Shown here piece after piece: positions 1,043-56,623 of a stretch of 64,000 bases of DNA. The stretch lies in contig JAPYMA010000406.1 of the NCBI GenBank assembly GCA_035041965.1, forward strand, positions 1 to 64,000. The letters run 5' to 3'. The position numbers were made by a program, and so were the translations under genes. Origin of the DNA: Anisakis pegreffii (taxonomy: Eukaryota; Nematoda; Chromadorea; Rhabditida; Anisakidae). The notes beneath the pieces were generated by a model. It was not told where the DNA came from. It made no database searches and worked only from the letters and a program-made list of their open reading frames with translations. Numbering within the stretch: the stretch's first letter is position 1; every line of letters starts with the position of its first letter.

Positions 1043-4000
1043 TCATAGTGGACTTATTAAGGGTGAAAATATTGATGCAGGCCTTTGGAGTCGGATCCCA
1101 GGCGTTGCATTTGTTATCCTCGGGCGTTGTACCACCATTGTTGAATTTGTTGGTTCCGGGCGTCGTACCATTTCCTTGAGTTCGATGCCTGTGGCAGTCA
1201 CGCGTTCGTTGTCGGAGGTGGATGGGAATTGGATTCGGACGTTGTTACTCGAGCCGAGGCATCCAGTGAACTTTAAGTACAGCAAAAGCGCTGCGATTCC
1301 CAACAGGGTAACTCCGATGATGATCGCGATGATTACGTATCGGTTGCTGATCGTATTGAGAACAGCTTGTATTTCCTCGGCTGTTTTGGTGACTCGATCT
1401 TCAGCCATCCATAAGATTTTTTCGCCCTCATTCCTCAAACTGTCGAATGTACCGTCCGTCGGTGTATCTGAACCGACGTCGGCGCTAACTTGCTGCATTT
1501 CTTGATGTAAGAGCGAGAGAGCTTGATCAATACGTTGCCTTTCCAAGTTAGGCAATGGACTAGCCTTGAACGTAAACTCGTCTATCGTCTGATTGGATGA
1601 TGACGAATTGGAATCGGTCGTGATATTGCTGTCACACGTCGATACCAGTAACGCATCGTCTGATAGTCGAATTGCTTCGACATCTGTTCGTTGTAACAAG
1701 ATCCTAGCTGCTATTGTAGCTGGGCTAGTTCTTGCTATGAGATTGACGGCATTATTTGACTCACATATTGATTGTTCCATTCTCGGGAAGTGCTGATTGA
1801 TTTGTCTCCGAAGAAGGTTGTAGACGAACTGTAGCTTGACGTTTATTGGGTCATAGCGTGATTTTGACTTTTCCCAGAAATATCCAAGTATTGAGTTCTT
1901 ATCGTCTGAGAAAATAGTCTTATTCATATAAGGTGAGAAACTAGCCGCAATGTCTTTTTCGTGTTCTCGATTCATTATGCTTACCCATCTAGGGTTAGAT
2001 GCCATCCATTTTGAAAATGATCCGCGTATACTTTTGTCCTCGAATACCATTGCGAAATCGTTTTCCAATAAATATACTTGTTGTATATCGCATTTAGGTA
2101 AGGCAGGAACATAATGTTTTAATCCGAAAGAGGCTTCCAAACCTTTCACGCTAACAAAATGTGGAGTAGCGTACACTGTGTAGGTGCCCAACAGTTTGTA
2201 GTGACATTGTTCGTTAGCATTCGTAACGTTCCAAATTAGCGTATGATCAGTGATGCAGACACCATCTTTGGCTTTGCATTCGGCCGACACACTTCGATTG
2301 GTTTCGAAGAGCCGATCATCGGCATAGATAGCAACCGAGCCATATTGTAAGACGTAATTAGACGTTGTTTGACATCTCGTTCCGATCCAGCCGAAAGAGT
2401 AATCTTCTGGTACGTCGGTTTCCCATCGGTTGTTTGATCGTAAGACCATTTGATTTCCATCAATTTTCTTTGTGCGGATTATTTCCGTACATAATTGAGG
2501 TGAAATGCCAGAAACATTTGTATAGTCCGATGTCACGGATAAGGTGAGGTGGAAAAACGAGTTAGTACATACCGTTCTTGAGTGGTTCGTACATGAGTAG
2601 GCTGGAGTGGTGACATATGTTCGAGTGTAGATCGTTGCTTCCGTCCACACACTTCCGCCACCTCGTTCCATCACACTACAGTTTCGGTAAGCGGGAAAGC
2701 GTACTGGAACGCCCCCTTTTGGGTTTCCACATTTCGTTGCTTCACCAAATTGCGTAATGATGGCTAATAGTAAGAGACATGATGTCAACGTCGTACTGGT
2801 TTCGAGCGCTCGCGTTCTGGATCGTGTTATTGGTCCTTGATACTGGTTATTTGAGTTTTTCCTCTCTTCGCTGCCTTTCGGTGTTCTATTTTCACCGTTT
2901 GTCGCCTGCGTTTTGTCACGTTGTGTTCGTGCGAAAGCTGCGTCATCGTTATGGATTTCCAGTGGGTAGAGTAGATTCACTGGGCGTGATAGGTTTTTAT
3001 TGTTGGTACCACAGTTGAGTTCCGCGGATCGAATATTTCCATCTATTCCCGTGATGAGTTTGTCGATAACGCCCAATTTCCAGAGCGGGCGAGGCTTCGA
3101 TTCATCATGCATGATTACTACTTCCCCCAACTGGGGCAATCTATGAGTAATTATTTTTCCCGACTTGTGGTTTCTTTGAGTACGTTCTCGAAGACTTAAT
3201 AAGTAATCAGTCTCCCAAGCATCCCAAAAACGTTCGATGAATCGTTTAGAGTGCGTCCAAGATCTAACCAGTATGTCTCGATTATTAGCTGATTCCATAT
3301 ATTCTTCATCAGATTCGGAATTGGTATCTCGGAATCCTGGGGAAGTTGACATATTTGTTGCAGGAGTGATTAGATCGATTGGCCTTATGACTTGAAGTGA
3401 TTCTTTATCTACGTAAGTCAACGGCCTCGAGTTCACCAGTGATTCGCACTCACTGATTAGGGTTTTTAAGTGTTCGTCGCTGATAAAGGCTCGTCCAATC
3501 ATTCGTTTGAGAGCCTTTTTTGTAGTTTGAATCATTCTTTCGTAAACGCCCCCTTGCCATGGAGCAAATTCCGTTATATTTTTCCATTGTACACGGCTAA
3601 GAATTTGGCTTACTGTTTTTGCTGCGAGTATGAAAGTTGGCGCATTGTCGGATATTATCAACTTTGGTTGTCCCCATCGAGCAACGAATCTTCGAAAGCT
3701 TAGGATGAAGGCTTCTGTTGAGCAATCGGTTACGACTTCCAGATGTACTGCTCGAGTCCACAGGCATGTGAACAGAGATATCCATCGTTTCGAGGTCCTT
3801 TCATTTGTGGCAGACGCTTTGATGCGAATAGGACCAAAGTAATCCAACCCAACATTGGTAAATGGATTGGTTGGAATTGTGCGTTCAGCTGGTAATTCCG
3901 GGAAAGGCGGCAGTTTGAATGGTTTCGCCTTCCAACGTTTGCACTCCATGCAGTGTCTTTGTATAGTATTCTGGATAGTGGCTCTTCCTTGCGGTATCCA

Positions 4001-7000
4001 GAATCGTTTGCGAATTGTGTTTAAAGTATGAGCGGTACCTGCATGAGCGAGTTGGTTGTGAGCGTCCAGTATGATAAGACGCGTCAGCGCATTGTTTTTT
4101 GGTAGAAATATAGGGTGAATGTTGTCTTTTGGAAGACGAGAAGCCATTACGCGTCCTCCACATCGATAGATACCTTCGTCTTGGAACATATCGAACGTAG
4201 TTTTCTCTTCGGATTTGATTTGTTTGTTTTGAATATCTTTCAAAAGATAGAATTCCGCAATTGTTAGATCTTCTGCCGTGAAAGGCCCAAATGAACTAAC
4301 GGAAGCCCATTTGGCTGTAGAACGGCTTTTCATTGTCTTCGTAGCGAACCGTAGGACCGCAGCTGTTGAGTTCAGGAGTCGATTGTAGTTGCTGAAGTGT
4401 TCAGGGTTGAAGATCGATGGCTTATCACACTCGATTGTCGTAAGGCACGTCGTTCGTTCTTCATCATGAGCAGTGGGCTTCGAATGAAACGGTTCAGGCC
4501 ATTCTGATTCAGGTCGTTCCACGAATTTCGGTCCATGGAACCATTCCTTGTGTTGGATTAATTCTCTCGGTTGAATACCCCTGGTAGCGAGATCAGCAGG
4601 GTTCAAAACACCCGGAACATATCGAAATTCGATATTTTGATATGCTTTTATTTTTTCCACTTGATTTCGAATGAATCGTTGGCTTTGATTATTTAGCTCT
4701 ATCCATGAGAGTGAACACTGGCTGTCTGACCATAGGATCCGTGGTACATCTGATTGAAGTTCAGAACTAACGTGATTGAGTAGTCGAGTTCCAATTAAGA
4801 TTGCGAGTAGCTCTAAACGTGGGATTGTGAGTCCTTTGATTGGTGCAAGGCGACTTTTTGCCATGATGAGGTTGCAGCCGGCATCTGATTTGATATACAC
4901 GGCTGCAGCATAAGCGTCTTTCGAAGCATCGACGAAGCAATGAATTGCTTTGGGTTGACCAATATTTCTACTGATTTCGATCAGTTGATTCTTCCATCCC
5001 TTCGCTATAGAGTGGAAATTGTTCATGTCCGTATCGTTTAAAGGCTCATCCCATTTGTATTTAAGCTCCCATAATGACTGAATCAGGATTTTGATTGGCA
5101 GTATTGTGGGAGTGAGGTACCCCAACGGATCAAATATACTCGCGATCCAAGACAGGATTGATCGTTTTGTAACGTTCACTTCATTAAATTCCTTGAAGCT
5201 GAAACTTATTATATCGGATTGAACATTCCAAGATATTCCTAACACTTTGCTTTTTATGGTGTCCTGCCGTTCACTAGGTTCCCAGTGGCTACGGACTTCT
5301 TTGTTGTTCGAGTTGAATTCTCGAAGATTCATGGAGGCTTTAGCAAATAATTTCTTTGCGGCTTCCATTTTGTTAATTGCTTCGTTCGTTGCAGCTGCTG
5401 TGATCATAATATTGTCCACGTACGCATTGTCGATTAGTTCCTTCGCGATTGATGAAGTATCATTCTTTTTCAAATGATAACGGATTGTGGCTGCTAACAG
5501 AAACGGCGATGCGATGACTCCAAATGGAATTCTTTTGAATCGAAAGATTCTGAGATTTTCCGCACTTAATGCTTGATCAGAGTCTTTGGGCCACAGGAAT
5601 CGAGTTGAATCTCGATCCATTGTTTGTAAGCCGATTTGTAGAAAGGCCTTTTCGATGTCTCCGATGATGACGATCTCAGCTACTCGGAAACGTAAGAGGA
5701 CGCCGGATAAATCTGGTAAGTAGACGGGCCCACGTAGTATGGCTTCGTTTAGGCTACATCCACCTGTTCGCATCTTACTTGAGGCATCGAATACAAGACG
5801 AACCTTTGTAGTTACGCTTGTTGACTTGACGACGGTTTGTATCGGCATATAGTACGATCGAAGTTGTTCTTCCTGACCAGTAACTTCTTCGATCACACCG
5901 GAGTCCAGCTGCTCTTGTATTATATCTCCACACTTTTGTCGGAGATTTTCGTTCTGTCGTAGACTGCGCAAGGTTGAGCACAGTCGACGATGACAGAGCG
6001 AGTAATTGTTGGAGAATTGTTTGTCATCTTTCCATGGCCAACAAACGTGGTATCGGTTGTTACTGAATTTAATGGTGTTATTAAACCTTTGAATTGCCAC
6101 TTCGTCGTCCGTAATTGCTGGATTCTCCATTATGCCGATTAGCTCCAGTTTCCAAAATCTCTCCACCGGATCTTCTGATATTGACGTCGTCACAGTGAGA
6201 GAGTCGGCCGATGGGTTGTCGTATGGATCGGTTTTTCCTTTACCACTCAATATCATTCCCAGACGGGATTGGAAGAGAGTAAAACCAGATGGTAGTTTTG
6301 TAGCGGATGCTAAATCCAAGATTCGATCCATTTGATCCACACCAATGAGAACCGATACTGGAGCTGCTTGCGTTTCGAGTGAAAGAATACTTCTCTGTGT
6401 GAGTAATTTTGCGGGTAACTCCACAGTAAGTATTTTATGCGTAAGTTTTGGAACAACTAACGCACGAATTGTAGTTGGCCCGTCGTTTCGAGCCACTTGA
6501 ATTTCGACGATATCGGTTTGCGCGAGTTGGGTTGTAGTTTCTCCAAATCCGCTAATTGTAACTGGTCTTCTGCCGATAATTGGCAGGTTGAGCTGCTGTA
6601 CCAGTTCTTTAGTGACATATGTGCTGTCACTACCGCTGTCGAACAGCACCACTGCCTTGTATCTTTGGTCAGGATTGTTTGGATTGATGACGTCGGCATA
6701 CGTCGTCGGCAGTAGTATTTGATTCGTAGCGAAATTGTCTTCGCCAGAATCTCGTTGCCCAAAAAGTGCAGTGTTAACTCGATTTAACTGCATACTTGAT
6801 ATATTATTGTTGTTGCTGACAGCGGTTGCCATTGTCGGTTGTCGTCTCGATTGTCGTGCACCTCGACTGCCACCGCTTGCATGCTGATGGCTCGATCGAC
6901 TTGTTTTCTTCGCGGCTTCGTAGCAGAAGGCCTGATGGTGATTCGCCTTCCCGCAATAATAGCACGGGATCTTGCTCCAGCAGTCTTTCGCTATATGGTC

Positions 7001-8257
7001 CTTTTTCAGGCACCGTAGGCAAAGCTTCTGTTGCTTTGCGTTGTTTGTACGGCTTTCCGCCGAATTGTATTGCTCACATCGAGCTGCCCAGTGCTTGCCT
7101 CCACAGAAGGGGCATGCACCTGAGCTATTGTATTTGTTGAAGACGATACCTGGTCCTCGTTGTTGTTGCTGCTGAGTGATCGTGAACGCGGAGCTGGATT
7201 CCACGTCCTTGTCTTGACCAATCGATTTTTGTCGTTCGACCGGATGTGACCACTTGATGTTTTCGCGCACCTTCACCATCAATTGTAGCTTCGCACACAG
7301 TTGGTCCACGTTCCAATCGTCTGCGTGTTGTTTGTCGTTGTAAATCTCCAGTAACGCCCATTGAGGCAATTTGCCCTCAATGAGCGTTTCTAGAAGTGGG
7401 TCGTTGACGTTATCTCCCAATTCTCTCAATTGACGTATTATCGTCATGAGAGAATTGACTGACTCGCAGAACGAGTAACGGTCGACCGCCTTCATAGATT
7501 GAAGACTTCGGTGCAATTTTCGGCGCAGAGAATCAGATTCTCCGAACCGTTCGAACAACGCATCTTTTATTGCGTTATAGTTCGATTCTTGTATGGCGAA
7601 GCCAGCCACTGCGCGGGCAGCTTCACCTTGTAAGCTACTTATTAAATAAGTGAGCTTGTGCACCGTCGCAATTGGTGCATTGTCGACTGAATATTTGAAT
7701 GAGGCCCAGAATGTTGGCCATAATATTGGGTCACCGTGAAATATGGGGAGTTGAAGTTTGGGCAATTGAACCCATGAATTATTTGATGTATTTGTTTCTG
7801 GTTGGGTGGGAGTTGGATAAATTTCTGGTCTGGAGATGGCATTTTCTGGATCATCGGAAATTGCCTTACTTGTTGAGGGGAGGGGGGTGGGCGATAAGGT
7901 TTCATCGATAATATCAATATTAGAAATGATCTCATCGATCATATCTTTGCCTTGCGAAATAATGGCAAAGAAACCTGTGGGTTCGGCGATTGTTTGGGTA
8001 TATTGTTCGATTTCCTCGTTTGTCGTTCCTTTCGATTTCAACGCTTTTCTCCATTCGTCGGCGTAGAATTGTAGATCGTCGATGTTTCGACCGATCTTCC
8101 TCTTTGCCAACTGGTATCCTTGTCGGGTGGACCTCAAATAACTTGTGAGGTCCGTCCTGGCTGCTTCACACGTCCAATCGATGGCGGTAGTGCTGTCGAG
8201 TATTCCAGTGAGCGTAGCAGTTAACTGATTAACAATAGGAATAATGATGGCAGTCAT
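1043..8257 (-). CDS. Gag-Pol-Env polyprotein of a BEL/Pao retroelement
   Basis: One uninterrupted frame of 2404 residues. The N-terminal part is Gag, ending with zinc knuckles at about residues 385-450 (CX2CX4HX4C-type cysteine clusters). The aspartic protease active site (DSG) is near residue 540. The reverse transcriptase catalytic box reads YVDN near 946, where many polymerases have YVDD. An RNase H-like region starts near 1105 (CFVDAS). The integrase shows an HHCC zinc region at about 1400-1440 and D, D and E residues near 1471, 1535 and 1570. An envelope-like part begins with a hydrophobic signal-like segment near 1825, is Cys- and N-glycosylation-site-rich, and ends with a transmembrane helix near 2300-2325 and a short tail. 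Fusion of Env in frame with Pol is unusual; elements of this group often place Env in a separate frame. No internal stop or frameshift was seen, so it may be coding-competent. Confidence 0.93.
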   Translation of the reverse strand: MTAIIIPIVNQLTATLTGILDSTTAIDWTCEAARTDLTSYLRSTRQGYQLAKRKIGRNIDDLQFYADEWRKALKSKGTTNEEIEQYTQTIAEPTGFFAIISQGKDMIDEIISNIDIIDETLSPTPLPSTSKAISDDPENAISRPEIYPTPTQPETNTSNNSWVQLPKLQLPIFHGDPILWPTFWASFKYSVDNAPIATVHKLTYLISSLQGEAARAVAGFAIQESNYNAIKDALFERFGESDSLRRKLHRSLQSMKAVDRYSFCESVNSLMTIIRQLRELGDNVNDPLLETLIEGKLPQWALLEIYNDKQHADDWNVDQLCAKLQLMVKVRENIKWSHPVERQKSIGQDKDVESSSAFTITQQQQQRGPGIVFNKYNSSGACPFCGGKHWAARCEQYNSAESRTNNAKQQKLCLRCLKKDHIAKDCWSKIPCYYCGKANHHQAFCYEAAKKTSRSSHQHASGGSRGARQSRRQPTMATAVSNNNNISSMQLNRVNTALFGQRDSGEDNFATNQILLPTTYADVINPNNPDQRYKAVVLFDSGSDSTYVTKELVQQLNLPIIGRRPVTISGFGETTTQLAQTDIVEIQVARNDGPTTIRALVVPKLTHKILTVELPAKLLTQRSILSLETQAAPVSVLIGVDQMDRILDLASATKLPSGFTLFQSRLGMILSGKGKTDPYDNPSADSLTVTTSISEDPVERFWKLELIGIMENPAITDDEVAIQRFNNTIKFSNNRYHVCWPWKDDKQFSNNYSLCHRRLCSTLRSLRQNENLRQKCGDIIQEQLDSGVIEEVTGQEEQLRSYYMPIQTVVKSTSVTTKVRLVFDASSKMRTGGCSLNEAILRGPVYLPDLSGVLLRFRVAEIVIIGDIEKAFLQIGLQTMDRDSTRFLWPKDSDQALSAENLRIFRFKRIPFGVIASPFLLAATIRYHLKKNDTSSIAKELIDNAYVDNIMITAAATNEAINKMEAAKKLFAKASMNLREFNSNNKEVRSHWEPSERQDTIKSKVLGISWNVQSDIISFSFKEFNEVNVTKRSILSWIASIFDPLGYLTPTILPIKILIQSLWELKYKWDEPLNDTDMNNFHSIAKGWKNQLIEISRNIGQPKAIHCFVDASKDAYAAAVYIKSDAGCNLIMAKSRLAPIKGLTIPRLELLAILIGTRLLNHVSSELQSDVPRILWSDSQCSLSWIELNNQSQRFIRNQVEKIKAYQNIEFRYVPGVLNPADLATRGIQPRELIQHKEWFHGPKFVERPESEWPEPFHSKPTAHDEERTTCLTTIECDKPSIFNPEHFSNYNRLLNSTAAVLRFATKTMKSRSTAKWASVSSFGPFTAEDLTIAEFYLLKDIQNKQIKSEEKTTFDMFQDEGIYRCGGRVMASRLPKDNIHPIFLPKNNALTRLIILDAHNQLAHAGTAHTLNTIRKRFWIPQGRATIQNTIQRHCMECKRWKAKPFKLPPFPELPAERTIPTNPFTNVGLDYFGPIRIKASATNERTSKRWISLFTCLWTRAVHLEVVTDCSTEAFILSFRRFVARWGQPKLIISDNAPTFILAAKTVSQILSRVQWKNITEFAPWQGGVYERMIQTTKKALKRMIGRAFISDEHLKTLISECESLVNSRPLTYVDKESLQVIRPIDLITPATNMSTSPGFRDTNSESDEEYMESANNRDILVRSWTHSKRFIERFWDAWETDYLLSLRERTQRNHKSGKIITHRLPQLGEVVIMHDESKPRPLWKLGVIDKLITGIDGNIRSAELNCGTNNKNLSRPVNLLYPLEIHNDDAAFARTQRDKTQATNGENRTPKGSEERKNSNNQYQGPITRSRTRALETSTTLTSCLLLLAIITQFGEATKCGNPKGGVPVRFPAYRNCSVMERGGGSVWTEATIYTRTYVTTPAYSCTNHSRTVCTNSFFHLTLSVTSDYTNVSGISPQLCTEIIRTKKIDGNQMVLRSNNRWETDVPEDYSFGWIGTRCQTTSNYVLQYGSVAIYADDRLFETNRSVSAECKAKDGVCITDHTLIWNVTNANEQCHYKLLGTYTVYATPHFVSVKGLEASFGLKHYVPALPKCDIQQVYLLENDFAMVFEDKSIRGSFSKWMASNPRWVSIMNREHEKDIAASFSPYMNKTIFSDDKNSILGYFWEKSKSRYDPINVKLQFVYNLLRRQINQHFPRMEQSICESNNAVNLIARTSPATIAARILLQRTDVEAIRLSDDALLVSTCDSNITTDSNSSSSNQTIDEFTFKASPLPNLERQRIDQALSLLHQEMQQVSADVGSDTPTDGTFDSLRNEGEKILWMAEDRVTKTAEEIQAVLNTISNRYVIIAIIIGVTLLGIAALLLYLKFTGCLGSSNNVRIQFPSTSDNERVTATGIELKEMVRRPEPTNSTMVVQRPRITNATPGIRLQRPASIFSPLISPL

Positions 8258-8265
8258 GGTGAGTT

Positions 8266-8275
8266 TCTTACCTCA
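8266..8275 (-). promoter_or_regulatory. Candidate 5' splice site in the retroelement leader
   Basis: The minus strand reads GAG then GTAAGA, a near-perfect nematode splice donor, 13 bases upstream of the polyprotein ATG at 8257. A leader donor in this place could make a subgenomic envelope mRNA by skipping gag-pol. No acceptor was proven. Confidence 0.4.
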
Positions 8276-46974: not shown

Positions 46975-47400
46975 CATGACAGGCTTAACTGGACTGTATC
47001 TAAGGCAATTATGCAAAATCGCTCGACAACATGTATACTTTCCTGAAACTAGGGAACTCCTGAAGTCCATTTTGAAAAGCACTCGCGGGTTACTGAGCAA
47101 ACCTGATTGTGAGGATACAGATAGTCTGAAAATGCTACACGTGATATTCCTATGGAACTGTATCATTGATCAGGTCACAGAGATCAAAAATGTGCAGCTT
47201 GACTGCATTACAAAGTGGCTCAAATATCTTCAGAAAATCAGCTATAACTCTTGAAATAAGCGGAATCTCCGACAACGTATGTGATATTTTGAAAACTGAG
47301 AATCTGCTGAATTCGATGGTACCAAAAAACCATGGTGTTGCCAGGCAAACTTGAGGATAAAGGTAGTTTGAAAATAGCACTCATGACAGCCCTATGAAAT
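46975..47400. repeat. Dispersed repeat family 2, copy 2
   Basis: Matches copy 1 in the words GATATTCCTATGGAACTGTATCA, ATCTTCAGAAAATCA, GAGAATCTGCTGAATTCGAT and GTTGCCAGGCAAACTTGAGGA, in the same order and spacing. Short frames on both strands are chance. Confidence 0.5.
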
Positions 47401-47559
47401 CGCTCAGCTGTATAACTCATCTAGCTTAATTGAGCTGCATCTAAAGAAAGTATGCAAAATTGTCATTGATATTTAGGTCTGGCACAGATCATTTCCCGAG
47501 TTACTTTAATCTCTTTGCATTTGTTCACTACAAGTTCCCTTTGTAGCCGTGATACTAAA

Positions 47560-47665
47560 GGTGTTGCATGGCCACCGTTTCGCTGAGATCATGGCTCATC
47601 GCTGCGAAATCATTCAACATAATGTATACATTGAATGCAAATAAGACATATTTTGTGAAAAGTTG
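47560..47665 (-). pseudogene. Decayed counterpart of the 51991-52247 frame
   Basis: On the minus strand the frame reads VYIMLNDFAAMSHDLSE, then VAMQHL and a stop. The intact counterpart at 52050-52190 reads VYITLEDLVAMSQDLGK and continues. It is therefore a broken copy of an exon-like frame. Confidence 0.4.
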
Positions 47666-48213
47666 TCAAATTATGAAATAGCGATGTATTGAACATGCTA
47701 ACATGAGATGATCAGTTCAGCAGAGAACAAAATGAAGAAACAACAAATGATTTGGATGACATGCTGAGGTGATCAGTTCGGCAGCGAATGAAATCACATC
47801 AAATTCAACAGCGAATGAAATCACATCAATTAAATGAAACAACAGAATGAATGATCCTTCTGAATCTTGAGATTGCATTTGAAGATCATCGAGCACAATT
47901 TCACATCGTCACATTTGTGGTGTTTCATTCTAATCTGGTATCGCCTTCGACGGTTCGTTCATCTGTTAACTTGGATCATCTCAGAAATATCAGTTTGTAT
48001 GGTTAATATCCACTGTGAGATGAATGATGATCAAAGGAACGCCAACTGATGCATTATTCCATTCGAAAACTATTTGCAGTTTAGATTTTAAATTGTTTTA
48101 ATGAAAGTATGAGGATTGCATTAGTTAACAGTGGATATTAATTATGATCGAGACGCTTTAATGATTTAGTTACATTCACGTTACGTGATCCAATATTGAC
48201 AACTCATTGCATA

Positions 48214-49823
48214 CTAAATCGAAAGATGGATCATCTGAACCTGAGATGTGGCAGATTGTGCTTGAATCTCTGGTCTCAATACTTCAGATCCCATTGCCGA
48301 TTTATCGGATTGATCCAATTGCTTGTTCAACTTCTTTCCAACTGACAACTTTCCAATCACATCTGCCCACATACGTGCCAAACAATACCCGATTCCCAAA
48401 TCCAAATCCAGCAATAAACTCAGTAACGGTCCTAATATGACAGGTAGCGTTAATGATGATGAGCAATCTGAAACGGTAATGTTCTTCAGACGCACACGTT
48501 TAAAAATCTAGTCTATGAAAAATCTGACCCAAGTCGTGGGAATGGGATGGGACGCTCAGTTCAATTTCAAACTCAAACTCAAAAAAAAACCAAACCAGTC
48601 ACAGCATGTCTCTGCGAATGAATTTGATATTTCTTAAATATTCATTTCTCCATTTCTAATCTGATATTTATTTCTTGACCAATCCCAACTGGAGACTCAT
48701 CAACGTGCAATGATAATCATCGAGAGCAAATGACGTTTCGATGTGTGCCAACCTGGTTGTGAATATGCTATCGACTCCCAGTCATCCTCATCTTCATCCA
48801 TAAGCATTGGATTAATTGCATGTTTTTGTTGTTGTACGGGTGTTGTTTGGGTTGATATTGTTATGGTATCGGTTGTCGATGCGGTTGTGGTTGTCGATGT
48901 ACTGCTTGTGGTTGGGGTTAGGGTTGTGGTTGGGGTTGTAGGTGTGGTTGGGGTTGTAGTTGTGGTTGGGGTTGTAGTTGTGGTTGGGGTTGTAGTTGTG
49001 GTTGGGGTTGTAGTTGTGGTTGGGGTTGTAGTTGTGGTTGAGGTTGTAGTTGTGGTTGGGGTTGTAGTTGTGGTTGGGGTTGTAGTTGTGGTTGGGGTTG
49101 TAGTTGTGGTTGGGGTTGTAGTTGTGAATATGGTTGCGATTGTAGGTATCGGTATGGTTGTGGTTGTGGTTGACGGTGTGGTTGTGCTTGAGGTTGTCAA
49201 TATGAGTGGGGATTCGCACCAGGCACCGAACCAATATTCGTAGTTTGTGTCGCCTGTCCATCTAATATCGATTGTTCTCATAGAACAGTCAGTCATCAAA
49301 TCGCACTGCAATGTGAGACAGATTTCTGTCAATTAAATTCAACTAAGTAAGTGTTCACGATTCCCTCTCCCTAGAAATTATTGCGCAATACGGGAGAGTG
49401 GCTCAACACCTGTGTGCTCGTCAAATCATCAATAATCCAAGTTAGAATTTAATGAACACAAATGTTATTATCGTTAGCTGCACGGAAGAATGTCAATGAA
49501 GGAAGAATGTGATATTAGTGATACTGTGATAACAGAGAGGCATAAACTCGTAATGAGTTGCAGTTGGATTTGCTGACGATGAGTGTTGACGAGTAAGGAA
49601 TTTATGAAACGATTACAATATTACGAAAATGAATTTGCGCAAGTTCAGTGTGCTACTTACTGGGTTAGAAGGATGACATGAAATAATAAAGGTGCCAGCG
49701 TGTGTCTCGTTGACTCCCAACATTCTGAATAGTTTAGGCAAATCTTGTCGACACTGTACGTTGGGGTGCTTTTGAGGATGAAAGCGCATTGAATTCAACT
49801 TAAAGATATCAACATCAGTAATA

Positions 49824-49897
<74 letters not shown>

Positions 49898-50453
49898 AAC
49901 GTCACCATCAGCCACAATATCAACATCGAGATCACGGCAAACTCTCTCTATATTACTGATTTCCTGAAAATGTGTTCGCATGAAAGTGCTAAACTTCCAT
50001 TACAAGACCGCACTGATATGCCATAATATGGTGGTTTTGTTGAACGAACGATCTTCGAACGGCGCATATCAGGAACACCGAAACGAAGACTGAACAAAGT
50101 AGTCATAAATGAAAACATTCGTGACAAGTGGAAAGAAATGCCCTGAGTAAAGCAGTTCGAAGTACTGAGGCGTTAGTATAAGCAGTAAACAAAAAAGAGG
50201 TCAACGCTCATCACTTATTAAATTAAGCTTTCTAGAAATGCATAAACGCTTGCTAAGAAACAAGACAGAGATTGAAAGCAGAGATTAAATTAGCCAACGC
50301 ATTTCCGTTGCTTACTTCGTACATCGTTCTATTGTAAAGAGCACACGCTTTGAATCTTTTCGCAGCCGTAGAGCGCGAAGCTGCGGTAAAAAGCACCGCC
50401 AGCAGCAAACAAGAGCGCATCCCACTCTCGTTGACCTTCCAAATGATCAACAT
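48214..50453 (-). CDS. Tandem paralog A: unrecognised secretory-pathway protein with Thr-rich stalk
   Basis: Exons in transcript order: 50453-50316, 49963-49661, 49305-48705 (alternative donor 48735), 48467-48214. Phases agree; about 431 residues. The ATG at 50453 gives MLIIW; a second ATG 11 codons on begins a better signal peptide (MRSCLLLAVLFTAAS). Exons 2 and 3 encode a small Cys-containing ectodomain with a conserved core, FRMLGV. A poly-Ile run of over 20 residues (about 70-96) comes from an ATT microsatellite. A mucin-like stalk built from TTTTTP units comes from an 18-bp minisatellite. A conserved acidic DEDEDDWES segment follows, then exon 4 with a Leu-rich hydrophobic stretch that may span a membrane and a basic, Gln/Ser-rich end. 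I do not recognise the family. The paralog at 52986-54865 supports the model. Confidence 0.6.
48910..49126. repeat. 18-bp minisatellite inside exon 3 of paralog A
   Basis: About twelve units of GGTTGGGGTTGTAGTTGT on the plus strand, with a few variants at the edges. In the gene's frame each unit encodes TTTTTP, so length changes stay in frame. The paralogous exon at 53476-53815 lacks the array. Confidence 0.9.
49817..49894. repeat. AAT/ATT trinucleotide microsatellite inside exon 2 of paralog A
   Basis: About 25 AAT units with few interruptions on the plus strand, read as ATT (Ile) codons by the minus-strand gene. A short duplicated DVDI-type coding segment flanks the array on both sides, as if the array was inserted with duplication. 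Absent from paralog B. Confidence 0.9.
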
Positions 50454-50633
50454 TTTCGGTGAAAGTAGAAAGGCAATAAAACAATTTGCAAATTTCGCTG
50501 TTACTCGAACGTATTCAAATCATTTTTGGTCGGTATTTGTTCCGATCGTTGATATTCAAAATTTAGCTGTATTTGAAGTGAACGAAAGTTTCATCTAGGA
50601 AGACACAAAACTTTTCAGAAATTACAAGGCCTT

Positions 50634-50850
50634 TTCTGTTTGGCGGAATTCAAGAATTATCACAATATTGATAAGATTGAAGATATAAGTCTGTTCGGTG
50701 ATCTCAACAGCTGCTTCTCTGAAGGTAAATAAAATTGCCCGACAAAATTCATATTTTTCTGAAAGTAGAGAACCTGTGGAATTCGATGATGTGAAGAAAC
50801 CACTATGTTATTGGGAAAACCTGAGAGGACTGACTCTTTGAAGATGGTGA
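50634..50850. repeat. Dispersed repeat family 2, copy 3
   Basis: Shorter and more diverged than the copies near 46.6 and 47.2 kb. It shares the arrangement GAGAACCTGTGGAATTCGAT followed by AAACCACTATGTTATTGGG and AAACCTGAGAGGA. Confidence 0.4.
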
Positions 50851-50884
50851 CCCTCAGACTGCCGCGCTGATGTATGTATTGATC

Positions 50885-51365
50885 TATAGCAGTGCTTCTA
50901 TAGGGGTGAGATTACGCATTTTGAGTAATTTGGGGGTGTCGGGAAATTAGTATTTCATGCAGTTGTTATGTTATAATAGAACGCCATTGTGATGGTGCAT
51001 TTTCACTTGGGCATTTAAATGCGGTTAGTTCATGCAAATACTCTTCTTTCTCCTATTTCCTCACTATCATTAGGTCGTCCGAGGCTAAACAAAAGTCTGT
51101 TCGGTCGCCAATGTTTTGTAAGTCCATCGATATATTCACTGATATCGTCACTCATCAACACTGACGACTGACTGAGAGAAACTAATGCTTGGTGATGTTT
51201 TGGCAGGGTGAAACGCCGTTGTGATGGTGCATTTTTCACTCGGATATCTAAACGTGGCTCGCTGATGGAAACATTCTTCGTTATCATATTTTTTGAGTAT
51301 CTCCAACTCGCCTAGTCCTGAACAAAAGTCAGTCTGAAGTAGGTACAATTATTTCGTAGTCAAAA
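50885..51365. repeat. Two partial copies of the hAT-like repeat
   Basis: 50890 starts CAGTGCTTCTAT and continues with sequence similar to 16780-17070. A second partial copy begins near 51205 (GAAACGCCGTTGTGATGGTGC, then AACATTCTTC and ACAAAAGTCAG). The second copy repeats the middle of the first, so this looks like a nested or tandem fragment pair. Confidence 0.5.
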
Positions 51366-51437
51366 GGTCAAAGATACGTCCGTCCTGTGTTCTGCCCTGG
51401 AACAATATGTTTTCTTGGTATCATTGCTTCTTTATTT

Positions 51438-51915
51438 TTTTCTTTTGAGACAGAGAATTTCAATTCCTTCAGTATATACGCCAATTATGACAATCGAACA
51501 TCACCATTGGTCACGCCAAGTGGCATAACTCCCGTAATTTATCAACTGGCGTTAATATTCAAACGAAGCTTCTGTAGTACTCAATCTCGGCTGCAAGATG
51601 GTATATATCGTGATTATAAATTCCCCTGTCGGGTGGGTAACAATTCAAATTATTTCTTGAACTTTTACACTTAAAGCGAAATCGAGAAGAGCTCGAACAT
51701 ATCTTGATTGCTGGCAAATCTATATATATCATGTTTAATCCACTTAGATCTGCGCTACAACGTGGTATATAAATTGCCCGGATTTATTCCAGTTCAATGG
51801 GGAAGAAATTATCGAGTGATTTCTGAACTCATATCGAGTGATAATCCGAGTTCCGTTACGTGGCGAAATATCGGTCCGTTCTTACTTAGCGAATTGTCAG
51901 CATTCCGATTTCATT
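51438..51915 (+). pseudogene. Possible relic of a Cys-loop receptor ectodomain
   Basis: Two open stretches on the plus strand. The first (51438-51660) contains NYDNRTSPLVTPSG, resembling the first strand region of Cys-loop ligand-gated channels (YDxRxxP). The second (51740-51917) begins LDLRYN and includes WRNIGPFLLSEL, reminiscent of the loop before the WxPDxFFxNE motif. Key residues are missing and no signal peptide, Cys loop or membrane segments follow. If the resemblance is real it is a fragment; chance similarity is possible. Confidence 0.22.
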
Positions 51916-51990
51916 AACGTTGGAAAGTTAACTGAACTGAAAGTGCAGCGTTGAGAAATTGATACAACACAGACGGCCCATCTCTGATGA

Positions 51991-52247
51991 TTATTTGTTA
52001 GTAATCAGCGTAGGTTGTGTTATTGTAACTGGTGCAGATGATGTCCCAGGTGAGTTTAATCTCTTTGCATTTGCTTTTAAAAGTGCCCTCGTGACATTTG
52101 TGTTTTTATCCGCGAGATGTTGCATGGCCAATGTTTTGCCGAGATCTTGGCTCATCGCTACGAGATCTTCCAACGTAATGTAGACACCATAAGGAATGGC
52201 AGTTGAGAAAAAGAAAACCGTTTTGGAGATGTTGGATGATTCTGATT
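51991..52247 (-). CDS. Exon-like frame with acceptor, possible terminal exon of the duplicated family
   Basis: After an acceptor (TTAATCAG) at 52248 the minus strand is open to a stop at 51991. The frame includes VYITLEDLVAMSQDLGK and ends PTLITNK. It is in phase 1, the same phase as the end of exon 3 of paralog B, so it could be an alternative last exon instead of 53239-52986. Its counterpart near copy A (47560-47665) is broken. Not matched to any family. Confidence 0.3.
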
Positions 52248-54974
52248 AATGTGGCATTATGATGCGTGTATAACTGTCATTTAGAAGAAATAAGTTTATT
52301 GAAATTATAATATCAAACAACAAAAAATTCACGATGTTGAATTGCACAAATGATCACAAAAGATCGAAGTCGAAATATAATTGATCAATGTTATTTTTGG
52401 ATGTCCTCAAATAGATTTGCTTGCAAATTTCATTGAATAATCAATTTCTTATCAATAGAATTGAAAATATTCATTACAAACTCGATGACCTTTGAAAATA
52501 TTATTGCAGAAACAACAAATGATGAAGAAACAAATGATTCGGATGGCATATTGAAGTGATCAGCTCGGCAGAGAATGAAATCACATCAAATTCAACATCA
52601 ATTAAATGAAACAACAGAATGAATGATCCTTCTGAATCTTAAGATTGCAATTGAAGATCATCGAGCACAATTTCACATCGTCACATTTGTGGTGTTGCAT
52701 TCAAATCTGGTATCGCATTCGACGGTTCGTTCATCTGTTAACTTGGATCATCTCAGAAATATCAGTTTGTATGGTTAATATCCACTGTGAGATGAATGAT
52801 GATCAAAGGAATGCCAACTGATGCATTATTCCATTCGAAAACTATTTGCAGTTTAGATTTTAAATTGTTTTAATGAAAGTATGAGGATTGTATTAGTTAA
52901 CAGTGGATATTAATTATGATCGAGACGCTTTAATGATTTAGTTACATTCACGTTACGTGATCCAATATTGACAACTCATTGCATACTAAATCGAAAGATG
53001 GATCATCTGAACCTGAGATGTGGCAGATTGTGCTTGAATCTCTGGTCTCAATACTTCAGATCCCATTGCCGATTTATCGGATTGATCCAATTGCTTGTTC
53101 AACTTCTTTCCAACTGACAACTTTCCAATCACATCTGCCCACATACGTGCCAAACAATACCCGATTCCCAAATCCAAATCCAGCAATAAACTCAGTAACG
53201 GTCCTAATATGATAGGTAGCGTTAATGATGATGAGCAATCTGAAACGGTAATGTTCTTCAGACGCACACGTTTAAAAATCTAGTCTATGAAAAATCTGAC
53301 CCAAGTCGTGGGAATGGGATGGGACGCTCAGTTCAATTTCAAACTCAAAAAAAAAACAAACCAAACCAATCGCAGCATGTCTCTGCGAATGAATTTGATA
53401 TTTCTTAAATATTCATTTCTCCATTTCTAATCTGATATTTATTTCTTGACCAATCCCAACTGGAGACTCATCAACGTGCAATGATAATCATCGAGAGCAA
53501 ATGACGTTTCGATGTGTGCCAACCTGGTTGTGAATATGCTATCGACTCCCAGTCATCCTCATCTTCATCCATAAGCATTGGATCAATTGCATGTTTTTGT
53601 TGTTGTACGGGTGTTGCTCGGGTTGATATTGATTCTATTGCGATTTTAGGTATCGGTATGGTTGTGCTTGAGGTCGTCGATGTGAGTGGGGGTTCGAGGG
53701 TCGTTGATTCTGTATCCTTGCACTCGACATCGAACCGATATTGGAATTTTGTTTTGGTTTGATCATACACCGTACTGATTTTAATCACATAACACTTGTA
53801 AAACATATCAACGCACTGCAATGTGAGAGAGATTTCTGTCAATTGAATTCAACTAAGTGTTCACGATTCCCTCTCCCTAGAAATTATTGCGCAATACGGG
53901 AGAGTGGCTCAACACCTGTGTGCTCGTCAAATCATCAATAATCCAAGTTAGAATTTAATGAACACAAATGTTATTATCGTTAGCTGCACGGAAAGAAGAA
54001 TGTCAATGAAGGAAGAATGTGATATTAGTGATACTGGTGATAACAGAGAGGCATAAACTCGTAATGAGTTGCAGTTGGATTTGCTGACGATGAGTGTTGA
54101 CGAGTAAGGAATTTATGAAACGATTACAATATTACGAAAATGAATTTGCGCAACTTCAGTGTGCTACTTACTTTGATTTCAGGTGGACATGAAATAACAA
54201 AGGTGCCAGCGTTTGGCTCTTCGACTCCCAACATTCTGAATAGTTTAAAAAACCTTCGTTTACATACTGTTTTCGGCTGCCGTTCAGGATAAAAGCGCAT
54301 AAAACCCTTCTTAAAGATATTAACATCGAGATATCGGCAAGTTGCTAAACTTTGGAATTCCTGAAAATGTGTTCGCATGAAAGTGCTAAACTTCCATTAC
54401 AAGACCGCACTGATATGCCATAATATGGTGGTTTTGTTGAGCGAACGATCTTCGAACGGCGCATATCAGGAACACCGAAACGAAGACTGAACAAAGTAGT
54501 CATAAATGAAAACATTCGTGACAAGTGGAAAGAAATGCCCTGAGTAAAGCAGTTCGAAGTACTGAGGCGTTAGTATAAGCAGTAAACAAAAAAGAGGTCA
54601 ACGCTCATCACTTATTAAATTAAACTTTCTAGAAATGCATAAACGCTTGCTAAGAAACAAGACAGAGATTGAAAGCAGAGATTAAATTAGCCAACGCATT
54701 TCCGTTGCTTACATTGGGCATCGGTTTATCGTTCCAAACGGACGCGTAGAAACCTCGATCTGGTTTTTTTTCCGCAGCCGTAAAGCGCGAAGCTGCGGTA
54801 AAAAGCACCGCCAGCAGCAAACAAGAGCGCATCCCACTCTCGTTGACCTTCCAAATGATCAACATTTTCGGTGAAAGTAGAAAGGCAATAAAACAATTTG
54901 CAAATTTCGCTGTTACTCGAACGTATTCAAATCATTTTTCGTCGGTATTTGTTCCGATCGTTGATATTCAAAAT
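52050..54974. repeat. Segmental tandem duplication, copy B
   Basis: Counterpart of 47520-50563, offset by 4.4 to 4.8 kb. The right edge is sharp: copy A diverges after CGTTGATATTCAAAATT, and at the same point copy B joins a third partial copy. Confidence 0.9.
52986..54865 (-). CDS. Tandem paralog B: unrecognised secretory-pathway protein
   Basis: Exons in transcript order: 54865-54713, 54360-54172, 53815-53476, 53239-52986. Phases agree; about 311 residues. The signal peptide (MRSCLLLAVLFTAAS from the second ATG) and exon 4 are almost identical to paralog A. The mature N terminus, exon 2 and the start of exon 3 differ strongly. Exon 2 encodes a 63-residue Cys-containing segment sharing FRMLGV and AGTF...SC with paralog A but without the poly-Ile insertion. 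Exon 3 has Cys residues in a FYKCYVIKISTVYDQ region, a short Ser/Thr stretch in place of the Thr/Pro array, then the conserved DEDEDDWES segment. It is probably the less altered form of the gene. Function unknown; probably secreted or membrane-anchored. Confidence 0.62.
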
Positions 54975-55450
54975 TCACAAAAGATCGAAGTCGAAATATA
55001 ATTGATCAATGTTATTTTTGGATGTCCTCAAATAGATTTGATTGCAATTTTTATTGAAGAATCAATTTCTTATCAATAGAATTAAAGATATTCATTACAA
55101 ACTCGATGACCTTTGAAAATATTATTGCAGAAACAACAAATGATGAAGAAACAAATGATTCGGATGGCATACTGAGATGACCAGTTCAACAGAGAATAAA
55201 ATGAAGAAACAACAAATGATTTGGATGACATACTGAAGTGATCAGTTCGACAGAGAATGAAATCACATCAAATTCAACAACAATTAAATGAAACAACAGA
55301 ATGAATGATCCTTCTGAATCTTAAGATTGCAATTGAAGATCATCGAGCGCAAGTTCACATCGTCACATTTGTGGTGTTGCGTTCAAATTTGTTATCGCCT
55401 TCGACGTTTCATCAGTCTCTTAATTTGGCTCATTTCAGAAATATCAGTTT
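54975..55450. repeat. Segmental duplication, partial copy C
   Basis: Resembles 52356-52770 (CACAAAAGATCGAAGTCG, CAAATGATGAAGAAAC, GAATGATCCTTCTGAATC). It contains only the 3'-flanking part of the repeated unit and no exon. It adjoins copy B directly, so the unit was once at least triplicated. Confidence 0.85.
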
Positions 55451-56623
55451 GCACTGTGACGATTTCTTGCTCTTGTGAAGGGGATTTAGCGAACAACGTA
55501 ATAGAAAGACCCTAGCGAATAATATTCTCACCAGCACTACCCATATTACTTCTAGATCTCTCAGGGAATTGCCACGATAATCACCTCTAGCCAACCATCA
55601 CACTTATTTCTTTTTTCCTTCAATTTTGCTGCAAGTTGTATGAATTCTCTCAAAACATGCTCAGACTGAGAGTCACCTGAACAAAACATTTTCCCGATTT
55701 CCATTTCTTGTTTGATTCAATCACCAAAAATGCTATCACTTCTAAATTCATGTCATAAAACCATAAATCAATATCAAAATTATAGTGTCATAAAATCATC
55801 AAAATTTATTGTAGTATCAGCTTCTCCGATCAATCATACATTACGCCATGTGCATGTAGAAAACACCCTCGTAAAATTCATTTGTATTTATTCACATTCA
55901 ATAAATTTAGACAATTAGTGAAACATCCAATAGCATATTCTTAAGACGATTTACAACAGAACCGGTAGTGACAATAAATAATCAGTGATTCCAGTAAACA
56001 ATGCAAGAAAATGCAAATAAATCAAAGAATCAAACTAAACAAAAGAAAATCAGCTGAAAACATGATTACAATCAATCAATCAAAACGAATAAAATCAGCA
56101 CAATCACATGAAAAACTTATGATCAAGTCACTTTCATAAACATACAAAATTTCACAATATTAACATACATCCAAAATTAACGAATAACAACAACAAAGAA
56201 ATGAATGAATATTAAACTATCAACAACAGCAATCAACGAACAGAAATCCTAATATTGAATGAGCGAGCGCACAGGTGAACAAAGCACATCACTTATAAAC
56301 TTGAAATAAGAAGAAAATTCGCATCAACTTAAAGAAATAAAAGCAAATCCGTATAAAAAGCAGCTGAAAACGTTCAACTGCTATGTGAAATCAAACAACC
56401 TTTAATGACAGACTGCACTCAATAATGCTCATCAAACCCGGCAAATCAAATGAATACTTTCTATATGCTTTTAGGGCAGTAAATGCTCTTAAATCATAAG
56501 TGAATAAATTCTTCTGCAATTACAACGGTTATTAACACGAATGTGCAACTCTCACACACAATTTTTAGCGTCGAACAACCATTTCAACATTGTTTTGACA
56601 CTACGAAACTATATTCTGAACTA
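55451..56623. other. Intergenic, nothing recognised
   Basis: A-rich stretch between the last duplication copy and the final exon of the zinc-finger gene. Should include that gene's 3'UTR. No supported exon or repeat. Confidence 0.45.

Follow-up and report, generated by a model that had tools for sequence, protein, structure and literature searches.

In a window of 64,000 nucleotides from the nematode Anisakis pegreffii (positions 1-64000 of one contig, G000:C309), two predicted genes, A and B, lie in tandem on the minus strand and consist of four exons each. The two copies are nearly identical in their introns, whereas the exons encoding a predicted cysteine-rich ectodomain have diverged strongly. 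The pair extends from the stop codon of A at position 48214 to the start codon of B at position 54865. The exon models are predictions, chosen to keep one open frame with GT/AG splice sites, and the exon lengths give splice phases 0/0/1 in both copies. Exon lengths differ between A and B by multiples of three, and both frames are open. The window belongs to a genome of 122.7 Mb in 1740 contigs, and the work described here is based on this one assembly. The features of the two copies are listed below, with the inner limits of the exon 3 parts counted by hand from a three-way alignment.

50453-48214, minus strand: copy A, whole gene, predicted protein of 431 residues
50316-50453, minus strand: A exon 1, presumed signal peptide (conserved) and variable 45-nucleotide end at 50316-50360; open frame, GT donor
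49964-50315, minus strand: A intron 1, 352 nucleotides, 2 of 352 sites different from B
49661-49963, minus strand: A exon 2, variable ectodomain with three cysteines and an in-frame (ATT)20
49835-49894, minus strand: (ATT)20 microsatellite inside A exon 2, 20 isoleucines in frame
49306-49660, minus strand: A intron 2, 355 nucleotides, 3 of 351 sites different from B
48705-49305, minus strand: A exon 3, variable cysteine block 49216-49305, threonine-rich stalk 48841-49215, conserved acidic end 48705-48840
48468-48704, minus strand: A intron 3, 237 nucleotides, 5 of 236 sites different from B
48214-48467, minus strand: A exon 4, hydrophobic (probable transmembrane) segment, tail and stop codon
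54865-52986, minus strand: copy B, whole gene, predicted protein of 311 residues
54713-54865, minus strand: B exon 1, presumed signal peptide and variable 60-nucleotide end at 54713-54772
54361-54712, minus strand: B intron 1, 352 nucleotides
54172-54360, minus strand: B exon 2, variable ectodomain with three cysteines
53816-54171, minus strand: B intron 2, 356 nucleotides, including a repeat-like stretch at 53864-54000
53476-53815, minus strand: B exon 3, variable cysteine block 53720-53815, short stalk 53612-53719, conserved acidic end 53476-53611
53240-53475, minus strand: B intron 3, 236 nucleotides
52986-53239, minus strand: B exon 4, hydrophobic (probable transmembrane) segment, tail and stop codon
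54952-55451, minus strand: remnant of a third tandem unit, similar to the 3' flank of the gene unit but lacking the gene

The predicted proteins consist of a presumed signal peptide, a cysteine-rich ectodomain, a threonine-rich stalk, an acidic stretch, a hydrophobic segment around exon 4, and a short tail. Three cysteines in exon 2 and three in exon 3 form the framework of the ectodomain. Counted from the last ectodomain cysteine, the stalk comprises 126 residues with 83 threonines in A and 37 residues with 10 threonines in B. The insert that carries (ATT)20 in exon 2 of A is in frame, and a 19-base word beside the microsatellite occurs nowhere else in the genome when up to one mismatch is allowed. 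Poly-isoleucine would make a very hydrophobic ectodomain insert, and this copy may be defective or may be spliced at a later in-frame AG.

A genome search identified a third close copy, C, at C1683:152410-150588, which lacks this insert, as does B. Within the 30 kb surrounding C, the gene unit and one stretch of 138 base pairs (bp) are the only matches to the window, and C is therefore not an allele of A or B. Its stalk holds 10 N, hence only parts of C were compared. In these parts the divergence pattern is the same as between A and B, so that neither A nor B is an assembly artefact, a possibility raised when the pair was first described from its sequence.

A comparison of the A and B introns gives 10 differences in 939 sites (98.9% identity). 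Those of C are 99.0-99.3% identical to them, with 9 of 940 sites differing from A and 7 of 944 from B. Between A and B, nucleotide identity is 98.9% in the signal-peptide codons, 98.0% in the exon 3 tail (3 of 153 sites differ), and 99.6% in exon 4 (1 of 249). In contrast, 20 of 45 sites differ at the end of exon 1 (55.6% identity), 54 of 189 in exon 2 (71.4%), and 36 of 90 in the cysteine block of exon 3 (60.0%). Over the three pairs (A-B, A-C and B-C, the order in which paired values are given throughout) these variable blocks are 46-77% identical, compared with 98.9-99.3% for introns. The earlier account of the locus, here called the sequence-only reading, had described conserved introns and divergent ectodomain exons in A and B, and the segment identities bear this out and extend it to C. 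The one residue that it found to differ in exon 4 is V/I. It was also right that the signal-peptide codons are almost identical, although they too encode one residue difference (S/F).

Identity is lost abruptly at four junctions, the exon 1 donor, both ends of exon 2, and the exon 3 acceptor. Over 15 nucleotides per side in three pairs, 115 of 180 bases are identical on the exon side versus 178 of 180 on the intron side, in agreement with the sequence-only reading. Gene conversion templated by spliced complementary DNA (cDNA) would replace exon sequence only and place edges exactly at splice sites, as such junctions might suggest, and a retroelement-like open frame is present in the same window. 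However, divergence begins in the middle of exon 1, after the presumed signal peptide, stops around the last ectodomain cysteine in the middle of exon 3, and hardly touches exon 4; we therefore give cDNA-templated conversion almost no credence. Because it starts and ends within exons, the divergence follows the predicted mature ectodomain, not exons as such.

Diversifying selection on the ectodomain is supported. When the three variable blocks (exon 1 end, exon 2, and exon 3 cysteine block) are pooled, the ratio of nonsynonymous to synonymous divergence (dN/dS) by the Nei-Gojobori method is 2.03, 2.28, and 2.04 (one-sided Fisher p 0.015, 0.004, and 0.009), where dS may be inflated since the method spreads changes in codons with multiple differences. 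The exon 1 end and exon 2 together give 1.71 (p 0.098, not significant), 3.53 (p 0.0015), and 4.45 (p 0.0004). Strong diversifying selection after a recent duplication might even be sufficient by itself, in which case the introns would reflect the young age of the copies and conversion would be unneeded. Such an explanation is consistent with dN exceeding dS in all three pooled comparisons, and with codons of the variable blocks that carry a single difference, most of which are nonsynonymous (30 of 33, 27 of 30, and 32 of 36, by hand sum). Yet exon 2 has a dN of 0.32-0.40, and intron divergence is 0.007-0.011, implying a ratio of about 34 to 54 if the introns date the copies. The synonymous differences within the blocks also exceed intron divergence more than tenfold, and the distal flanks differ more than the introns. 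We consider selection alone quite unlikely.

The synonymous differences were counted in amino acid-identical codons of the variable blocks and amount to 3 of 26, 3 of 26, and 6 of 28, or 11-29 times the intron divergence (p 0.004, 0.003, and 5e-7 versus introns). Conserved coding parts carry 0 of 108, 2 of 105, and 2 of 108 synonymous differences (p 0.0066, 0.053, and 0.001 versus variable blocks). Because the blocks lie so far above the introns in synonymous differences, the introns have had a different history from the ectodomain blocks. The evidence from this synonymous excess is moderate. Besides selection, either homogenization of the surroundings or an older ancestry of the blocks is needed. 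The sequence-only reading had offered diversifying selection or exon-cassette exchange; the first is supported, but a choice between the two is too narrow given the synonymous excess over introns.

The flanks show a similar contrast. In the first 250 bp after the stop codon each pair shows 2 differences in 250 sites, whereas between 250 and 450 bp the counts are 9 of 185, 9 of 185, and 14 of 200 (p 0.0015, 0.0009, and 6e-7 versus introns), omitting the last 55-60 bp where the alignment enters repeats and whose inclusion would enlarge the contrast. Intergenic DNA had been called almost identical, which holds for the nearer part and not for the farther one. More distal 3' sequence of B and C differs at 22 of 609 sites (p 6e-5). 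On the 5' side, A and C differ at 6 of 320 sites in the nearer 320 bp, no different from introns (p 0.16), and at 25 of 695 beyond about 320 bp (p 0.0002). Overall, distal flanks are 3.6-7% different versus approximately 1% for introns. Flanks and variable blocks alike are thus older than the introns, as expected of homogenization centred on the gene. The remnant of the third tandem unit lies directly upstream of B, which consequently retains no more than some 110 bp of the 5' flanking sequence common to A and C.

Genome searches also identified two distant paralogs. D (C162:341840-343807) has splice phases 0/0/1, six ectodomain cysteines, an acidic stretch, and a related transmembrane segment and tail (40% identity over 79 residues). 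Its stalk (L022 4901-5140, C162) is a TVQKPKP-type heptapeptide repeat where A has a Thr-Pro repeat. In E (C32:48259-47427), the signal peptide is related and the two cysteine exons are present, but the gene stops within exon 3 after the cysteine block, and its product is apparently a soluble, secreted form. A relic of exon 4 at C764:21508-21846 (L012 6508-6846) is 86% identical and is read in two frames. The family thus comprises at least five loci with ectodomain exons (A-E) and one exon 4 relic. No further loci emerged when exon 2, exon 4, intron 1, and the 5' end were used as queries, in searches that score only candidates sharing words with the query and may miss very diverged members. 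The term 'hypervariable family' probably overstates the size of the group.

Intron 1 of E is 71% identical to that of B, and intron 2 shows 65-66% identity, a value inflated because 99 nucleotides are placed freely within 356. In comparisons with E, identity is 65-69% in the signal codons, 40-48% at the exon 1 end, and 45-48% in exon 2 (45% to B), so that the order of the segments is maintained. Values near 45% are probably about what unrelated DNA would give in a global alignment. Against E, exon 2 therefore appears to have diverged to roughly the limit of measurement, whereas intron 1 can still be aligned.

That the introns of E still align to B (71% for intron 1, 65% for the inflated intron 2) would also be expected if introns were functionally constrained, as regulatory or RNA elements, and exons evolved at an ordinary or relaxed rate. 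However, the conserved coding parts are as uniform as the introns, synonymous sites included (0 of 108 in A-B), and the open frames of A and B, exon lengths differing by multiples of three, and dN/dS above 1 do not fit exons of relaxed or ordinary rate. No Rfam family reached its gathering threshold in 47000-56500. Furthermore, the stretch of B intron 2 at 53864-54000 resembles an interspersed repeat with matches at 77-82% identity in at least 37 other places (37 of 43 listed matches for a 1-kb query, the best 40 of 286 candidates having been scored). The corresponding stretch is nearly identical among A, B, and C, as opposed to 77-82% at the other listed places, which counts against intron constraint. 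We regard constrained introns as highly improbable.

The distribution of differences within exon 2 offers a further clue. Of the 63 sites at which two copies agree against the third, 26 lie before alignment column 60, and 15 of these unite B and C; of the 37 beyond that column, 25 unite A and C (runs test, p 0.014 for exon 2 and p 0.030 for all blocks). This mosaic fits occasional exchange inside the ectodomain too. It would also be produced by exon-cassette exchange, in which blocks from older paralogs or old alleles were imported into young duplicates and then shuffled, and block synonymous sites that are older than introns agree with such an origin. However, no donor was found: a genome search with B exon 2 matches A, B, and C alone at E-values up to 1, and one with exon 2 of E matches that gene itself and, marginally, C (E-value 0.065). 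Imported blocks would be unlikely to have edges at splice sites and at the end of the signal peptide unless selection trimmed them, which amounts to the explanation we prefer. Cassette exchange as the primary cause is unlikely.

In the explanation we prefer, to which we assign a probability of roughly 0.6, selection for different ectodomains is combined with homogenization of everything else by gene conversion or unequal exchange. A, B, and C would be paralogs in a small family of nematode proteins, predicted to be type I surface proteins with a six-cysteine ectodomain framework. Conversion or unequal exchange would keep introns, near flanks, signal peptide, acidic stretch, transmembrane segment, and tail uniform, while selection would favour differing ectodomains and purge conversions that reach into them. 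The result would be islands of old, divergent coding sequence whose edges fall at the last selected codon. For exons that are wholly ectodomain the edges would coincide with splice sites, and elsewhere they would lie inside exons, past the end of the signal peptide and beyond the last ectodomain cysteine. We infer conversion as the homogenizing process from the contrast in divergence, and surface location and ligand recognition from the architecture together with the pattern of selection. The proteins probably serve at the cell surface to recognize a partner that changes or is specific to the individual, and E would be a secreted relative.

The predicted architecture bears on this function. 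A hydropathy scan (19-residue mean, threshold 1.6 or more) gave peaks around exon 4 of 1.87 in A, 1.89 in B, and 2.55 in D, and one of 1.84 at the N-terminus of E. Judged by hydropathy only, the exon 4 segment in A, B, and D is probably membrane-spanning; their signal peptides are presumed from the hydrophobic run after the start. An effector or toxin reading is therefore not supported for A, B, and D, and only E is without the hydrophobic segment. No Pfam match was found for B exons 1-3, the ectodomains of B and D, or E, and a scan of A exon 3 returned DUF4757 alone with an E-value of 0.35, under its cut-off. B exon 2 alone, submitted with three relatives, was modelled as beta-beta-alpha-beta with a mean predicted local distance difference test score (pLDDT) of 82.6, and a structure search with this model gave no convincing structural match.

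Several observations weigh against the preferred explanation. The hydropathy scan leaves the N-termini of A, B, and D below threshold. The cysteine framework is not strict, in that B and D have six ectodomain cysteines, A seven, and E nine, and C is without the second cysteine of exon 3 but carries an additional one where exon 2 ends. Restricted to exon 2, the synonymous excess has p values of 0.002, 0.026, and 0.15 over introns and 0.0038, 0.15, and 0.4 over conserved coding sites. The exon 3 cysteine block, where the alignment is uncertain, has dN/dS of 3.2, 1.3, and 0.8, such that the per-exon calculation proposed by the sequence-only reading exceeds 1 in the pooled blocks and falls below it in this block of B-C. 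Only three close copies were compared, so that the pairs depend on one another, and few synonymous differences were available to count. In addition, the split at column 60 in the mosaic was picked by eye.

A more far-reaching possibility, which we advance tentatively, is that these genes constitute a recognition system without a Pfam name, composed of stalked surface receptors with a six-cysteine framework and a soluble member. Its ectodomains would be driven apart by recognizing antagonists or partners specific to the individual (mates, kin, hosts, or microbes), and ongoing conversion would keep the signalling and anchoring parts identical. If this were true, functional identity and binding specificity would evolve separately inside one gene.

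The surroundings of these loci include several other recognizable features. On the minus strand of the window, positions 1043-8272 contain an open frame of 2409 residues with a hydrophobic stretch near its end, read from the frame list, which resembles a BEL/Pao retroelement polyprotein. Judged by their translations, open frames near C resemble citrate synthase and a TFIIH p44-like protein, and the gene just upstream of the C764 relic a PDK1-like kinase. The 22-base SL1 leader has 132 exact copies in the genome and its reversed control has none, which points to a nematode.

A coding ectodomain that diverges faster than its introns marks an interface under conflict or recognition. Since the limits of the divergent sequence here outline the predicted mature ectodomain, the pattern nominates a nematode protein of unassigned role as a recognition or conflict molecule. 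The three copies A, B, and C provide a natural test of selection against gene conversion.

Introns more conserved than selected exons are a known evolutionary pattern, found in primate opsins, RH genes, the major histocompatibility complex (MHC), venom phospholipase A2, and lysin; the family that shows it here belongs to a nematode and numbers at least five loci. The primate long- and middle-wave opsins and human RHD/RHCE are likewise tandem paralogs with introns homogenized by conversion and particular exons kept different. As in that type of system, introns in A, B, and C are more alike than the selected exons and block synonymous divergence is above that of introns. However, the opsins are kept apart at few sites, whereas here whole cysteine-rich ectodomain blocks differ, with dN/dS above 1. 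The peptide-binding exons of MHC class I and II resemble the present case in that recognition-domain exons are older and more divergent than nearby introns, although MHC variation is allelic and involves known domains, and here it is paralogs that differ and the ectodomains of B, D, and E match no Pfam family. Snake venom phospholipase A2, conotoxins, and abalone lysin share introns, untranslated regions, or signal peptides that are more conserved than the mature coding parts. These proteins are secreted and soluble with no membrane anchor, in contrast to A, B, and D, which have a stalk, a tail, and, by hydropathy only, a probable transmembrane segment. The HYP effectors of cyst nematodes, compared by description only, are also a variable gene family in a nematode, but are plant-parasite effectors with variable tandem repeats, unlike the cysteine-rich ectodomain and probable transmembrane segment found here. 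With positively selected recognition and effector families in general, A, B, and C share a dN/dS above 1 in the ectodomain part (pooled 2.03, 2.28, and 2.04).

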